NCBI GenBank assembly: GCA_030039915.1
Contig: JASHUP010000023.1
Span: 1-5,153 of the forward strand
Length of the DNA: 5,153 bases
From: Thermoplasmata archaeon
Lineage (GTDB): Archaea > Thermoplasmatota > Thermoplasmata > UBA184
Direction of reading: 5' to 3'
Position 1 is the stretch's first letter. The number at the start of each line of letters is the position of its first letter. Both the position numbers and the translations under genes were made by a program. A model generated the notes under the pieces. That model was not told the DNA's origin. It saw nothing but the letters and a program-made list of their open reading frames with translations, and did not search any database. Of the stretch, positions 1 through 5,153 are shown piece after piece.

Positions 1-188
1 GTGGGCACTTTCAGGGTGCACGCGAACAGTCCAAGGCTACTGGTCGTCAACGAGCCCAGCGTGCAACTCGAGACCTTCACGCCGTCGAAGGTCAGCGTCA
101 CCGGGCTCGAGACGGAGAAGCCCGCGCCGGCGATCGCGACGCCGGCCCCGACGGGTCCCTGCCCCGGCACGACGGCGATCGCGGGAAC
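1..188 (-). other. Third IPT/TIG-like domain, cut by the window edge (residues 1656-1717)
   Basis: It begins VPAIAVVPGQGPVGAGVAIA and continues LTFDGVKVSSC (C1697), LGLFACTLKVP (C1712), stopping where the other copies have the SGTSGTT strand. The reading frame is open at the edge, so this domain, perhaps further copies and the C-terminal anchor continue below base 1. Confidence 0.75.
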
Positions 189-3100
189 CGTCACCACGAA
201 GACACTGGAGATCTTGGAACCACCGGCGTCGGTGGCCGTGACCGTGGTCCCCGACGTACCGCTCGGCACCTTGAACGAACAGGCGAACGCGCCGGTCGCG
301 CTCGTCTTGAGGGAGGTCCCGCTCCCACAAGTCGAGATCGTCACCCCGTCGAAGACGAGCCCGACCGTGGTCAGGACAGAGAATCCCGTCCCCGACACGG
401 CCACGCTGGCCCCGACGGGCCCGAGACTCGGACTCACCCCGATCGCGAGCGAGGTCACGGTGAACTTTCCGGTCACGGTCTGACCGCCGGTGTTCGTCGC
501 CGTGACCGTCGTCCCGGACGTTCCGCTCGGCACGGAGAAAGTGCAGCTGAACGAGCCGGACGCGCTGGCGACCAGCGATCCGCTCTTGCAGCTCGAGATC
601 TTCACGCCGTCGAAGACGAGGCCGACGGTGCTGAGACTCGTGAAGCCGGTACCGGATACCGTCACCGAAGCGCCGACAGGACCCTGACCGGGGCTGACCG
701 CGAGAGTGAGCGCGCCGTACGAGATCGCCTGCGTGACGCCGGCCCCAGATACCGAGAGAGACCCTGCGCTGGGGCTTGCGACGTATCCGGTCACGGAGCC
801 AACGGAGTAACTGTACGTTCCGTTCGGCTCCTGGAACGTGATCGTCGATCCCGTCGAAGTGATCGTGGTGCTCCCGAGCGTTACACTCCAGCTCGTTCCG
901 CCCGGGAGACCGGATTCGGTGAAGGCCACCGGGTAGGTGACCAACACGAAGCTCCCGGATTCGGTGACGGGCTTCCCGTTCACGACGCAGGGGCTCGGAG
1001 GGTACGAGGTCGGTTCGTAGAGCTTGTCGTTGGTCGCGACCGTGAAGGCGTACGTCCCGTTGGCCAAATTCGCCACGAGGGAGGTCGTCGCGCCCGTCGC
1101 GTGCAGCGACGGGCCGTTGGTGACGTTCACGTACCAAGTGGCCGTGGCCGGCAAACCGGTCTCCGTGAACGTGACGGCGTAGTTCACCAGCGTAAAGGTG
1201 ACGGTCTCCGACACCGGGAGCCCGTTGACCACGCAGGGGCTCGGCGGGGTCGCCGTCGGTTGGTAGCGCTTGTCGTTCGTCGCCACGGTGAACGAATACG
1301 TGCCGTTGGCGAGATCGATCGAGAGAGACGAGACTCCCCCGGTACCGGAAAGAGTCTGACCGTCCGTGAAGTTCACGTACCACAGATCACTAGTCGGCAG
1401 CCCCGACTCCGTGAACGTCACCGCGTAGACCGCGGACGTATACGCGAGGGTCGTCTCGGTCACCGCGCCGCCGGTCACTGACCCGGTGTACGGAAGCGTC
1501 GTCTGCTGCCATCCCGGGATACTGGCGATCGTATACTGGTACGTCCCGGCCAGACCGGTGAAGACCAAGCTATCGGTGCCTCCGTCCGTCAGCAGCGTCA
1601 GGGTCGTGGTCGTCGATCCGCTGTGGACCATGACTTCCCAGGTCAGCCCGGCGGGCAGTCCGCCCTCCGAGAAGACGACGACGGCCAACGGGGACGCGAC
1701 GGGGACGTACGGAATGACCAGGTTGACGGGACCGGTCGCGTTGAACGTGCCGCCCGAACTACTCGTGTATCCGGCGGGGACCACGTAGGGGACCCAAGAG
1801 TACTCACCTACTGGCAGCACGAGGTGGACCACGCTCGCGCTCGTCTCGACCTGGTCCAGCAGAACGTTCGGCGGATCGGGCCCGTCGCATTGCGGAGGGC
1901 TCCCCGGGCTCCCGTGGGCGGGAGTACAGGTCGAGCACCCGGGAGGTCCTCCGGGAGTCCCGTGGGCCGGTCCGCAAGCGCCGCACCCGGGGGGTCCTCC
2001 GGGACTTCCGTGGGCCGGATTACAGAACAGCGAAAAACTCCACTCGGTACCCGGCGTGATCCCTTGCGGCTCGATGGATACCGCCTCGTCATCGGTGGCC
2101 AACGGCGAGTAGTCCCCGCCGGAGTAGATGTAGGTCGCACAGTAGTAGGGTCCGGCGGTCGGCACGGAAAGCGAGCAAAGGTAGCCGGGCAACGGCGACC
2201 CGTACCCCATCGAAGGATCGATCACCGTTTGCGCGTTTTCGTCGTAGGGGAGGGCAAGGAGCGGATTGTCGGCTCCGTTGGCCCAATTGAGAGCGACTCC
2301 GTAGTCCCACCACGAGTTTCCTCCTTGGGTGGAGCCTCCGACGATATTGCCGACCAGCGGAATGCTCGGGAACCCTGGGGCGTACTCGGCCGTGGACGCC
2401 GGAATCGCGGAGATGTTCCAGATGTCGTCGGCCCACAAGAAAGGGGCGCCCGTGTACAAGTTGACCGGTAGAAGCCAAGCGGTCGTCGGCGTGGCAAAGA
2501 GATTGTTGTACACCAGATCGTATCCTTCGCCGAGCTCGAGCCCGAGCCCGACCGTGTAGGGAAGCAGCGAAAAGCACGTGGACGGTCCGGGACAACCGAC
2601 GGGTGGGCTGATCTGGATGAACCGGTTGCCCCAGACCGTGTTGTTCCCTCCGACGGTGTTGGGGGGTCCGAACGCCGAGCTGTTCGAGTACATCAGCAGG
2701 CCCTGGCTCTGGGTCATGAATACGTTGTTCGCGACCAGGTTGTCCTCCGATTCGTAGAAGACAACGTTGAACGAGTTGTAGGTCAGCGGCAGGTAGCCGT
2801 TCCGGCCGAACCAGCCGCTGACGTTGCTGTCGTTGTGGAGGGCGACGTGGTTGACGCCCCAGAACCAAAACTGGAGGTGGTTGGTCGCGGGAAGCGAAAG
2901 ACCGTACGGTTGGAAATCGTTCGTGTATGTCTCGAAGGTCGACGAATTGTTCAGCTCCACGTAGTCGGTGGTTCCTCGGAGGAAGACTCCGGGGTACACC
3001 GGGAAGGCGTAGTCGTTGTACAGCCCGAAATCCGACGAAAGCGGCGCGGGCTGATCGTATTCGAGAAGGAACGGATCCGACGAGGAGCCCGCTCCCGACA

Positions 3101-5153
3101 CCGCGAGGTCGGCAAGTTCCGCATTGTTGAACGCCCAGAGGGGAGTGTAGACTCCGAGGGACGGGTCCGAGGTGAGGTAGATGTTCACGGTACCTCCGCA
3201 CGGGCAGCTCACGTAGGAGTACGTGGGACTGTAGTCGGAGAGTTCGGTATGGAGGACGTAGTTGCCCGGCATGAGGTAGAACGTGTCCGTTCCCATGTTC
3301 GGGGCGAGGTCCCACTGCGACACGAGCGGCGTCGCGAAGCTCTGGGTCCCCGTGTAATTGAAAAAGGTGAACGCATTCTGCTCGGACGCTGCGATCGTCA
3401 GGGCCGACGAACCCTCCGGTGCCCCCGTCCCCCAGAGCCCGGTCAGGATGGACGGGCCGGTCGTCATCGTCCCATAGGTCGGGAGTCCGCCGGGACTGTC
3501 GGACGGGTTGTCGCTCCACGCGACGTTCGCGCCGACCGAGGTCTCCCCGGTGTCCGAGCCGTAGCTGTACGCGGACGGGATCGAGGCGTAGGCGGGCGAC
3601 TCGGGATACGGTGCCGTATCGTACGACAGGCCCAGATTGGCATCCGCCGTGGCCAGGTCGACTTGGCTGGCACCGCCCGGACCGCAAATGTCGAGCTCGT
3701 AATCGTCCAAGAGCCCCGCAGCATTGTACCCCGATCCGCTGGCGACGAACGGAGCGGGAGTCGGGACCGCCACCGGCATTTCGCTGTTGGTCGAGTTGAA
3801 CACGACCCAGTCGTAGTTGTTCATGACGAAATCGTCCTCGGTGGGATGGACGCTGCTGGAGATCGACGCGCTGAACGAGACGTTGTTTCGTCCGTGCCAG
3901 AGGGACGAATTCATGGTGAGTTCGACGTCGAAAGGATACAACTCGGCCTTGCTCACGGTGTAATTGGCGTAGTAGAAGGAGAGCTGGTTCGCGATGTTGG
4001 TCCCATACGGGCCGTGCGAGTAGATCGCGTTCGACGACACCGGCACGTCCTCGCCGGAGAAGTTCCAGATATTCGTTACCAGGAACATCTGGCCCGACGC
4101 CGGCAGATAGGTGACCACATCCTGGGCCCAGAAGGTATAGCCCGATGTCTCGTTGATCGTGATGTTGCTGAGCACGGCGTTCATCTGGATGCTGAACGCG
4201 TCCGGCGAGCTCTGGTAGAGGTCCTCGCCCTGGATCCCCGTGGCGTTGGCGTCGACGTACCCTTGAAGGGCGGTGGTCTCGAGCGTCGAAGCGATCAACG
4301 GCGCGCCGTACGCCACCCCCGAGGGATACGCGCCGACGCCCCCTACGTTGATCGACCCGACCACCGACGTTCCGCTGATGACACTGACCGTACCGCTGTT
4401 CTCGTTCGCCACATACATATCGCCGTTTGCGACTTCGTACGCGACTCCCGCCGGCGCGTCGAAGCCGGTGATCGTGCGGACCACGGTCGTACCGCTCAGC
4501 ACGGTCACGGTGTTCGTGAGGTTGTTGGTCACATACACGTACCCCAGCTCGGCATCGTACGCCACGCCATACGGACCGATCCCGACGCCGACGGTGGCGG
4601 CCACGAGGTCCGTCATCGGACTGATGATGCTGACGCTGCTCCCGTTGTAATCCGCCACATCGACCGTGTCGTTGCCACTATTGTAGGTAATGCCGAACGG
4701 CTCGTCCGTCACACCCACCGTGATCGTCGCGAACACCGAGTTGTTCCCGATCACGCTCACGGTGCCCGAGCCGAAGTTCGACACGAAGAGCTGGAAGTTG
4801 GAGCTGTCATAGGCCACCCCGGCGGGGCCACTGCCAACGTGGAGCGTGTATAGGACGGACGTGCCGTCGATCACGCTCACCGTGTTGGAGCCAAAGTTCG
4901 CAACGTAGATCTCCCCATCTTGCGGGTCGTACGTCACCGCGTACGGATTCGATCCCACCGTGATCGTAGCGACCAACGAGTTCGTCGTCCCACTGATGAC
5001 GCTGACCGTGGTCGAGCCCTCGTTGGCCACATAGACATCCCGGTTCACCGGGTCCAGGGCCATCGCGTACGGATCGGCGCCCACCGCCACCGTGGCCACC
5101 GGGCTGTTGGTCGTCCCGTTGATCACGATCACGGTGTCGAAGCCGGTGTTGGC
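1..5153 (-). CDS. Giant multidomain surface/secreted protein with YVTN propeller, thermopsin-like, beta-helix, Ig-like and TIG modules (partial at both ends)
   Basis: The complement is open from 5153 to 3: 1717 codons, no stop, no frameshift. Recognisable repeats fill the frame to both edges, so the true start and stop lie outside. Order of modules: seven YVTN repeats (1 to ~286), thermopsin-like domain (~287-572), small beta domain (~575-665), probable parallel beta-helix (~715-951), five FTESGLP Ig-like domains (1024-1481) and three IPT/TIG-like domains (1482-1717, the last cut). No internal hydrophobic helix is seen, so the visible part should lie wholly outside the cell; signal peptide and anchor must be off-window. 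About 27 N-x-S/T sequons and very few Lys/Arg suit a glycosylated exported protein of an acidophilic archaeon. Multidomain thermopsin proteins of this style are known to me from Thermoplasmata. Protease activity, substrate and stalk role are inferred. There is no neighbouring gene in view to define an operon. Confidence 0.93.
189..452 (-). other. Second IPT/TIG-like domain (residues 1568-1655)
   Basis: This 88-residue copy has the same layout: VSPSLGPVGASVAVSGTGF, VGLVFDGVTISTC (C1609), TGAFACSF (C1625, 16 residues on), then VPSGTSGTTVTAT, which is identical to the first copy over 13 residues, and VFVVT. The strong match to its neighbour indicates tandem duplication. Confidence 0.8.
453..710 (-). 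other. First IPT/TIG-like domain (residues 1482-1567)
   Basis: The 86-residue unit has the TIG signature: LAVSPGQGPVGASVTVSGTGF, then VGLVFDGVKISSC (C1522), SGSFSCTF (C1537), VPSGTSGTTVTAT and a final TGKFTVT strand. IPT/TIG domains are Ig-fold modules used as repeated spacers in bacterial and archaeal surface proteins. The two cysteines, 15 residues apart on neighbouring strands, could form a disulfide. Lysine is common here, unlike in the N-terminal two thirds. Confidence 0.8.
711..935 (-). other. Fifth FTESGLP-type Ig-like domain (residues 1407-1481)
   Basis: This 75-residue unit is the most typical copy: YPVAFTESGLPGGTSWSVTL, then ITFQEPNGTYSYSVGSV, TGYVASPSAGSLSVSG and VTQAISYG. It serves as the reference for recognising the split first domain. 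It has no cysteine, unlike the pair before it, and leads without a linker into the first TIG-like domain. Confidence 0.85.
936..1427 (-). repeat. Tandem pair of near-duplicate FTESGLP Ig-like domains (residues 1243-1324 and 1325-1406)
   Basis: Two units of exactly 82 residues (bases 1427..1182 and 1181..936) begin YAVTFTESGLP and YAVTFTETGLP. Both contain WYVN, LANGTY, FTVATNDK and PPSPCVVNG. By hand alignment about 53 of 82 positions are identical, far more than to the flanking domains, which points to internal duplication. Each has one cysteine at the same place (C1307, C1389). The DNA copies differ mainly at third positions. The lysines K1295 and its counterpart in NDK are the first after K402. 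Role: stalk modules, by family resemblance. Confidence 0.85.
1428..1688 (-). other. Second FTESGLP-type Ig-like domain (residues 1156-1242)
   Basis: It opens with LAVVVFSEGGLPAGLTWEVMV (L1156; the signature SEGGLP at 1162-1167), followed by a Thr-rich hairpin, then LAGTYQYTIASIPGW and a closing VTETTLAY strand. Length is 87 residues. This repeat is frequent in surface proteins of Thermoplasmata and related archaea and presumably forms one bead of an extracellular stalk. No Cys or Lys is present. Confidence 0.8.
1689..2084 (-). other. First FTESGLP-type Ig-like domain, interrupted by a cysteine-rich insert (residues 1024-1155)
   Basis: The first half, AVSIEPQGITPGTEWSFSLF (1024-1043), matches the opening strands of the later domains (xVxFTESGLPxGTxWxVxL) in degenerate form. 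The second half begins near V1101 with ETSASVVHLVLPVGEYSW, then VPAGYTSSSGGTF and VNLVIPYVP, matching the NGTYSYSV...GY...SGS...QAI strands of the complete domain at 1407-1481. Between the halves, where the other domains have only a short hairpin loop, sit three Cys-rich repeats (C1044-C1089) and a DGPDPPN connector. Removing the 46-residue insert leaves about 86 residues, close to the 75-87 of its neighbours. The domain boundary is by hand alignment. Confidence 0.72.
1887..2024 (-). repeat. Three tandem 16-residue (48 bp) Pro/Gly/Cys repeats, C1044-C1089
   Basis: The units start at P1046, P1062 and P1078: PAHGSPGGPPGC-GACG, PAHGTPGGPPGC-STCT and PAHGSPGSPPQC. The six cysteines (1044, 1057, 1060, 1073, 1076, 1089) follow C-x12-C-x2-C-x12-C-x2-C-x12-C exactly, with one His per unit. 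The DNA units (2018..1971, 1970..1923, 1922..1875) are similar but not identical, with synonymous differences, so the protein pattern appears selected. The two C-x2-C pairs plus histidines could bind a metal or form a disulfide ladder. Gly is not at every third position, so this is not collagen. I know no named family for it. Confidence 0.95.
2085..2300 (-). other. Linker between beta-helix and Ig-like stalk (residues 952-1023)
   Basis: This Asn/Pro/Tyr-rich stretch contains ALPYDENAQTVIDP, then PGYLCSL, GPYYCATYIYSGGDYSPL and DDE. C993 and C1005 lie 12 residues apart with a Pro-Gly turn between them, which would suit a local disulfide. The GGDYSPL element directly before the first Ig-like domain is a junction I recall from related Thermoplasmata proteins. 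No independent fold is recognised. Confidence 0.55.
2301..3161 (-). other. Probable right-handed parallel beta-helix, NosD/PbH1-like (residues ~666-951)
   Basis: After a lead segment (residues 666-721) the chain shows successive short rungs: GVFLRGTTDYVELNNSS (from G722), HVALHNDSNVSGWF, NSFNVVFYESEDNLVANNVF, GGNNTVWGNRFIQI, GYDLVYNNLFATP, VGNIVGGSTQGGNSWWDYG. Recurrent small-residue turns of the type N-x-V-x-x-N-x-F and the closing GGNSWWDY (G944-Y951) resemble NosD/PbH1 beta-helix coils, where GNYW-x-DY is a common end motif. Such helices bind or process carbohydrates or act as rigid adhesin shafts; no pectate-lyase-type catalytic set is apparent. C854 and C860 flank a P-rich loop and could form a disulfide. 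Spacing of the coils is irregular, so the fold call is moderate. It could alternatively be a solenoid particular to archaeal thermopsin proteins. Confidence 0.62.
3162..3431 (-). other. Small beta-sandwich spacer after the thermopsin domain (residues ~575-665)
   Basis: A run of short beta strands includes NAFTFFNYTG, TFYLMPGNYVLHTELSDY and GGTVNIYLTSDPSLG. The PG-x-YVL pattern resembles the strand-turn-strand of carboxypeptidase-regulatory or transthyretin-like domains, which are common spacers in archaeal surface proteins; this is resemblance only. It contains a C-P-C pair (C650, C652) in a loop just before the last strand. The DPSLGVYTPLW segment (residues 663-673) marks the passage to the next module, a junction I recall from other Thermoplasmata thermopsin proteins. 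Confidence 0.5.
3438..4295 (-). other. Thermopsin-like (peptidase A5) domain, residues ~287-572
   Basis: Thermopsins are acid proteases exported by acidophilic archaea. Landmarks in order that match my memory of the family: LQGYVDANATG near 298-308 (Sulfolobus thermopsin has LGYVNITS), a long strand with QMNAVL, then YTFWAQDV (W342, Q344, D345), FLVTNIWNFSG (W363), a GLLDDYELDICGPGG stretch (C490, G491-G494) equivalent to YDAEL..GGGG, and YGSDTGETS (G532-E537) equivalent to the family's FGADTAEA. From the LGYV motif to the end the domain is close to full length. The usual N-terminal segment before it (P-A-P-x-G-I-A-x-F-G plus about 20 residues) is shortened and merged with the last propeller repeat. 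I cannot assign catalytic residues with certainty, so activity is not proven; a binding-only derivative is possible. Extra features are K402, the only lysine before residue 1295, and eight N-x-S/T sequons. Confidence 0.85.
4296..5153 (-). repeat. Seven tandem YVTN/YncE-type beta-propeller repeats (residues 1 to ~286)
   Basis: Seven units of 42, 42, 40, 42, 42, 40 and about 38 residues start at residues 1, 43, 85, 125, 167, 209 and 249 (bases 5153, 5027, 4901, 4781, 4655, 4529, 4409). Each follows the pattern (A/S/T)N-x-GSxTVSVI-x-GT-x-VxTI-x-VG-x-xP-x-GVAYD-x-x-x-x-x-(I/V/L)(Y/F)V, the hallmark of the 40-residue YVTN propeller family (TIGR02276-like). Such repeats form the blades of a surface-exposed propeller, usually used for binding rather than catalysis. 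The first unit begins exactly at the window edge and should be preceded by the YV end of another strand, so more repeats may lie upstream; seven would already suffice for a closed ring. The last unit lacks the usual YV-AN closing strand and runs into the thermopsin-like domain. No Cys occurs here. Units are diverged at the DNA level, so they are not a recent expansion. Confidence 0.92.

Follow-up and report, generated by a model that had tools for sequence, protein, structure and literature searches.

Short Pro/Gly-rich units, nearly identical in protein sequence within a gene, random in codon choice and different between lineages, fill an insert in an Ig-like domain of archaeal proteins assigned to the thermopsin family. 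Homogenised-looking tandem protein repeats are usually young. Judged by their silent sites, the units described here are old; they have nevertheless stayed identical, while related genera have different ones, a pattern that points to selection for the sameness of the unit and presents a compact natural case of concerted evolution at the protein level with a testable cause. The insert was recognised in a stretch of 5,153 bp, analysed as a whole and referred to as the window. One gene spans its minus strand; most open frames of the plus strand, judged by eye, look like shadows of this gene. The features of the window are:

3..5153, minus strand: open reading frame of 1717 codons (P0001), both ends beyond the window
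4329..5153, minus strand: YVTN/YncE-type beta-propeller repeats, about residues 1-275 (PF21783, 5.9e-7; TIGR02276, 2.5e-36, seven stretches), their end being set where the thermopsin match begins
3534..4328, minus strand: thermopsin domain PF05317, residues 276-540 (E 6.7e-37, 127.8 bits, cut-off 25)
2139..2177, minus strand: cysteine pair C993...C1005 (GYLC...PYYC), just N-terminal to the insert-bearing domain
2025..2084, minus strand: interrupted Ig-like domain, first half, residues 1024-1043, from the alignment with insert-free relatives
1887..2024, minus strand: insert, residues 1044-1089, three units bracketed by cysteines
1983..2024, minus strand: unit 1, CNPAHGSPGGPPGC, residues 1044-1057, placed by codons
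1935..1976, minus strand: unit 2, CGPAHGTPGGPPGC, residues 1060-1073, placed by codons, linked to unit 1 by GA
1887..1928, minus strand: unit 3, CTPAHGSPGSPPQC, residues 1076-1089, placed by codons, linked to unit 2 by ST
1689..1853, minus strand: interrupted Ig-like domain, second half, residues 1101-1155, from the same kind of alignment
3..695, minus strand: three SPGQGPVGASVTVSGTGF-type (SPGQGPVGA-type) repeats at the C-terminus, cut by the window end

The PF05317 profile score above the cut-off assigns the window protein to the thermopsin family. Its relatives carry the name thermopsin in the source records, where the source organism, if given, is Thermoplasmata archaeon. The family is recognised by pepstatin-sensitive acid protease activity. 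With thermopsin itself (peptidase family A5) the window protein shares the family domain. Downstream of this domain follow a conserved stretch without known fold and several FTESGLP-type domains, and the insert is located about 500 residues C-terminal to it. The founding enzyme has one cysteine and the active-site residues of the family are unknown according to the thermopsin passages of a family review, in which the words 'repeat', 'insert' and 'disulfide' are not mentioned (PMC3842238). Two neighbouring FTESGLP-type Ig-like domains of the window protein carry a PPSPCVVNG motif with one cysteine each (residues 1307 and 1389). Domains of this type that match the second half of the insert-region alignment are present in many copies per genome in 14 of 15 genomes, with at least 37 in G009.

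The cysteines of the insert are residues 1044, 1057, 1060, 1073, 1076 and 1089, a spacing of 13-3-13-3-13. The original prediction of a C-x12-C-x2-C-x12-C-x2-C-x12-C array was confirmed by residue positions and codon arithmetic, which give exactly window 2024-1887 on the minus strand. Its count of 6 of the 21 cysteines within 46 of the 1717 residues was likewise correct (hypergeometric P ~1e-5). The spacing is not due to chance: when 21 cysteines were placed at random 20,000 times, it never arose. Tandem Repeats Finder reported a single tandem repeat for the window, this array, with a period of 48, 75% matches and a score of 144. A collagen-like repeat was considered and rejected, since Gly occupies positions 5, 8, 9 and 12 of NPAHGSPGGPPG and not every third residue. 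Among PDB sequences the insert region came closest to a receptor tyrosine phosphatase, with an E of 0.015 that is not meaningful.

Three protein searches retrieved 57 proteins besides the window protein, 19 with the insert (P0002-P0018, P0043, P0050) and 38 without it, the latter classed by reading the printed rows. A first scan of genome contigs returned FTESGLP and propeller proteins and no orthologues. Genome searches, scoring the best eight candidates per genome, located the insert in seven of the 103 genomes of one family. Three of the genome-derived proteins had counterparts in the first set, two matching P0004 and P0007 and the third closely matching P0050, leaving 24 distinct inserts for comparison (P0001-P0018, P0043, L040, L041, L042, L044 and L046). 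All 24 sit in the same hairpin. Ten rows with the insert and two without it can be aligned to either side of this site, with flanks of ...WGAVVSC-insert-...FETT... in the former and ...WGANITVGGNVLSFETT... in the latter; this alignment and a reading of the remaining rows support the proposal that the insert interrupts the first FTESGLP-type domain where others have a short hairpin. Insert-free relatives run straight through the site and the Pro/Gly-rich insert is likely to protrude, as had been suggested. No homologue was seen with the repeat outside this domain, and the copy number indeed varies among homologues, from one to four units.

A tree of 46 rows was calculated from the region before the insert, leaving out eight rows without anchor (insert-bearing P0002, P0018, L042, L044 and four insert-free). 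The 20 insert rows form one side of one branch with a support of 100/98. The tree shows one origin for its insert rows, and the insert was kept across a deep clade. The cysteine pair upstream of the insert (GYxC...YYC) is present in 22 of the 24 insert-bearing rows, and YYC occurs in none of the 38 insert-free proteins. A strict co-occurrence of pair and insert was dismissed on account of two exceptions, P0043 and L046. P0018 has an SBP_bac_5 (oligopeptide-binding protein) match at residues 727-1030, between the thermopsin and the insert domains, and is either a fusion or an assembly artefact. In several insert-free thermopsins (L057, L080, L081) a natural tail of histidines, HHH or HHHG, immediately follows ...YNGGDYAPL and ends the protein.

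The number of cysteines is even in all 24 inserts: two in nine, four in nine, six in two and eight in four. Most multi-loop relatives have a vicinal CC in place of the C-x2-C link of the window. Their loops contain one or two units each; those of the window comprise 12 residues joined by x2. In P0005, P0007, P0008, P0010 and P0011 a single large C-(26)-C loop holds three units. One unit copy lies beyond the last cysteine in P0018, L042 and L044, so a unit need not be in a cysteine loop. Even, bracketing cysteines are the mark of an array of disulfide-closed loops, and by this count the insert would be such an array.

The units differ by lineage: PAHGSPGGPPG, GPAKSGGA, GPAKGGGG, PPHSGGGG, PVKGTPGGG, PPVSLGGGG, TQKNSGGGG, APTHISGGNTSS, PPRTGGGN and GPSEKPPGG were found. 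The mean identity within an array was 0.90 for 23 arrays (P0014, with one unit, was excluded), compared to 0.52 between arrays (253 pairs), a value inflated by Gly, and 0.60 for the flanks of the same pairs. In only 10 of the 23 arrays did the least internal identity exceed the best match elsewhere, partly because near relatives share a unit. The window array is among the less perfect ones, with a least internal identity of 0.67 and pN of 0.12-0.22. Two unit types alternate in P0013, and in L046 unit four is divergent (pN 0.43). Among ten pairs of related arrays, 11 columns had changed in every unit, 15 vary within an array and 81 were unchanged. The clearest joint change separates P0015 from L040, TQKNAGGGG versus TQKNSGGGG in four of four units (A to S). 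Searches of eight genomes for TQKN-x-GGG and PAK-x-GG-x-GP units detected them in the array only, which rules out a general genome tag for these two unit types; a search for the CC pattern was uninformative, as the reversed control matched equally often.

The age of the copies was read from the codons of eight genes with available DNA (window, L038-L042, L044, L046). Adjacent units were identical at 145 of 157 residues. At these identical residues 77 of the 145 codon pairs differed, and random draws from each gene's own codon usage outside the array predicted 79.1. The agreement extended to non-Gly codons (44 observed, 43.5 expected) and to Gly codons (33 observed, 35.6 expected). Pooled adjacent units had a pS of 0.62 and a pN of 0.070, the latter lowered by unit borders drawn round the conserved core; the codon test is independent of these borders. 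For comparison, 230 residues upstream of the array gave a pS of 0.56 and a pN of 0.29 between the same genes, which belong to different genera. The silent sites are saturated, and a common DNA origin of the units leaves no trace there. As the codons of identical residues are as different as random ones, recent duplication and recent gene conversion are excluded for these eight genes. Old DNA turnover followed by strict conservation would lead to the same saturation, so that selection need not have acted on every joint change separately. In a large survey of protein repeats, Persi, Wolf and Koonin (2016) report that divergence is as a rule faster among the repeats of one protein than among orthologues and that most cases of detectable homogenisation go back to recent duplication, with three possible drives named (PMC5120217). 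The present arrays resemble the homogenised repeats of that account in that units of one protein are closer to each other than to those of its orthologues; here, saturated silent sites exclude recent duplication. They run against both of the trends reported there.

A gene for a class III cyclase-AAA-TPR protein (PF00211, PF13191, TPR) lies directly downstream on the same strand in all six readable insert loci (L111, L112, L113, L114, L116 and L046, the last on a contig that holds only the first 65 residues of the cyclase). The gap from the thermopsin stop codon to the cyclase gene is 37 to ~135 bp. In L112 the cyclase gene has the coordinates 4302-7565, with equivalents in L111, L113, L114 and L116. 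The seventh insert locus, L115, ends inside the thermopsin gene; another contig of the same genome (L148) has a matching C-terminus followed by the cyclase, and in G343 the same arrangement stands at a contig start (L146). Sixteen insert-free thermopsin loci were inspected, one of them unreadable. The 13 with at least 1 kb downstream had no adjoining cyclase gene, nor had two more with 426 and 686 bp. L122 encodes a 40% cyclase 2.6 kb downstream, past a gene on the opposite strand, and L125 a 34% cyclase downstream on the opposite strand. Scoring the best seven candidates per genome, a close cyclase (at least 51%, a cut chosen post hoc, with a partial match at 50% in G405 just below it) was present in 11 of the 103 family genomes, including seven of the seven insert genomes. 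In G275 a 51% cyclase has no thermopsin neighbour. Distances of thermopsin and cyclase proteins correlated with r 0.88 (6 of 5040 permutations as high), largely due to one close pair, G392/G398. The probabilities obtained (hypergeometric 1.7e-8; Fisher 5.4e-5 for 6/6 versus 0/12, on recount 0/13) assume that related genomes are independent and so give the greatest surprise that the data allow, the linkage being that of one clade whose members are not independent. A strong transmembrane stretch was not detected in the cyclase, the highest hydropathy over 19 residues being 1.44-1.71 (the G392 frame includes a long upstream extension). The cyclase regions of G398 and G392 match the first 187 residues of the query twice, a second cyclase domain in tandem. 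In L111-L114 and L146 the C-terminus is the same as that of the window protein and ends with ...FTVT, FKVT or FRVT and a stop, shortly ahead of the cyclase gene; a cyclase gene presumably follows the gene of the window as well. The gene order suggests a role of the cyclase-linked protein in a response system.

For these observations we tentatively put forward the following explanation, which we rate somewhat below an even chance. The insert would extend a loop of the first Ig-like domain in a thermopsin-family protein that is secreted; hydrophobic N-termini are visible in the rows of relatives. Its outer cysteines may close the extension at the hairpin base and the inner ones may split it into loops, so that the insert would stand out as a Pro/Gly-rich, disulfide-tied extended finger, a shape and a pairing suggested by the alignment and the cysteine counts. 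The finger would display one to four, mostly two to four, copies of a short epitope with the pattern [P/T]-x-[K/H/R]-x-G-rich. These copies may act jointly in multivalent binding of one partner or a repetitive ligand at the cell surface. Every copy having to fit the same partner would keep the copies identical within a gene, and a change of the partner would change all copies together and give rise to a lineage-specific epitope. The thermopsin-family protein probably works together with the cytosolic cyclase-AAA-TPR protein encoded next door, the two serving one response of which it would be the outer part. The single unit of P0014 speaks against multivalency as a universal property. Should the unit prove to be a recognition epitope linked with the cyclase, it would offer an entry to the coupling of surface proteins to cyclic-nucleotide signalling in uncultured acidophile-type archaea; among titles and abstracts we found no published description of such a coupling. 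Titles and abstracts on thermopsin combined with cysteine, cyclase or signalling likewise yielded none of the insert or of the thermopsin/cyclase gene pair.

Sameness could alternatively reflect self-fit. The Pro/Gly-rich copies would then be polyproline/polyglycine-II-like strands that pack within or between chains and are stapled by disulfides, a structural spike or homotypic contact. The composition of the inserts is in favour, with Gly contents of 15-57%, Pro contents of 8-40% and aromatic residues in only 2 of 24. A precedent is the polyglycine sandwich of phage S16 gp38, where, in the passages of PMC6851490 on this protein, Gly-rich turns growing from beta strands carry lineage-variable segments thought to bind receptors. 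The Gly-rich extension from beta structure is alike, by description only; tandem identical units and cysteine bracketing are unreported for gp38 in that account. In the window unit, however, the Gly spacing noted above does not follow a period of three, and the residues other than Gly and Pro (TQKN, AK, VSL, THIS) are identical as well, although strands of Gly and Pro could pack without this. We regard this alternative as rather unlikely.

Decidedly unlikely is an interchain disulfide ladder, in which the finger would cross-link neighbouring molecules. The hinge of IgG3 offers a model: adjacent to Ig domains it has Cys/Pro-rich tandem repeats, variable in copy number, that link domains in a chain. 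Repeated cysteine pairs in a Pro-rich stretch and a variable copy number are found here too, but the insert replaces a hairpin inside a domain, whereas the hinge joins domains. The even cysteine number in all 24 inserts is the prediction of intrachain loops, while interchain links need no even number, and nine inserts have the two bracketing cysteines only.

Recognition by the epitope might also concern the organism itself. In a self-recognition or peptide-signalling module the copies in the cysteine-tied finger of the secreted protein would represent a lineage-specific peptide password, and when this password is recognised or released, the co-encoded cytosolic cyclase-AAA-TPR protein would produce a cyclic-nucleotide signal; one cognate receptor would keep the copies identical, and unit and receptor would change together between species. 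This version seems improbable to us.

Quite improbable is a multi-copy peptide precursor, from which the units would be excised, perhaps by the thermopsin domain of the same protein, to act as a secreted signal specific to the lineage, with the cyclase-AAA-TPR protein as receptor after uptake. In RRNPP-type pairs, the gene of a TPR receptor adjoins that of a small peptide precursor. The neighbour protein adjoining in 6/6 readable loci has TPR matches, but its effector is a cyclase and the 'precursor' is a large protein. The peptides of fungal KEX2-processed repeat proteins are species-specific. Several identical units in a secreted protein, differing in sequence between species, repeat the pattern of these fungal proteins, secreted precursors with identical or nearly identical motifs according to PMC6339444. 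Unlike in the fungal precursors, no recurrent processing site separates the units, which abut or are joined by GA, ST or CC and, read by eye, share no dibasic site. They are embedded in a conserved folded domain and very Gly-rich, and P0014 has one unit only. The SBP_bac_5 match of P0018 (1.8e-8) would suit this reading, but it was found in one of four proteins scanned, a distant member.

Metal binding (Zn, Cu, Fe-S) by cysteine and histidine, the first candidate of the original prediction, has become very improbable. The window itself has C-x2-C twice and one His per unit, as predicted. The one-His rule failed in the family: homologous units have Lys, His or Arg, with a basic residue in 22 of the 24 inserts and none in P0004 and P0013. 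Lys replaces His in PAKSGGA, PVKGTPGGG, PIKGNPGGG, TQKNSGGGG and PSAKPPGG, Arg in PPRTGGGN, and PPVSLGGGG has neither. C-x2-C is exchanged for vicinal CC or one large loop, and neither it nor the His is kept among the 24 inserts. As the window His is not conserved, metal binding is unlikely, and the even cysteine number throughout fits disulfide closure better. A neutral low-complexity expansion of GC-rich DNA without function, where Gly/Pro-rich repeats arise easily, is hardly credible for units that are identical as protein and random in codon choice, in an insert kept across a deep clade with an always even number of cysteines.
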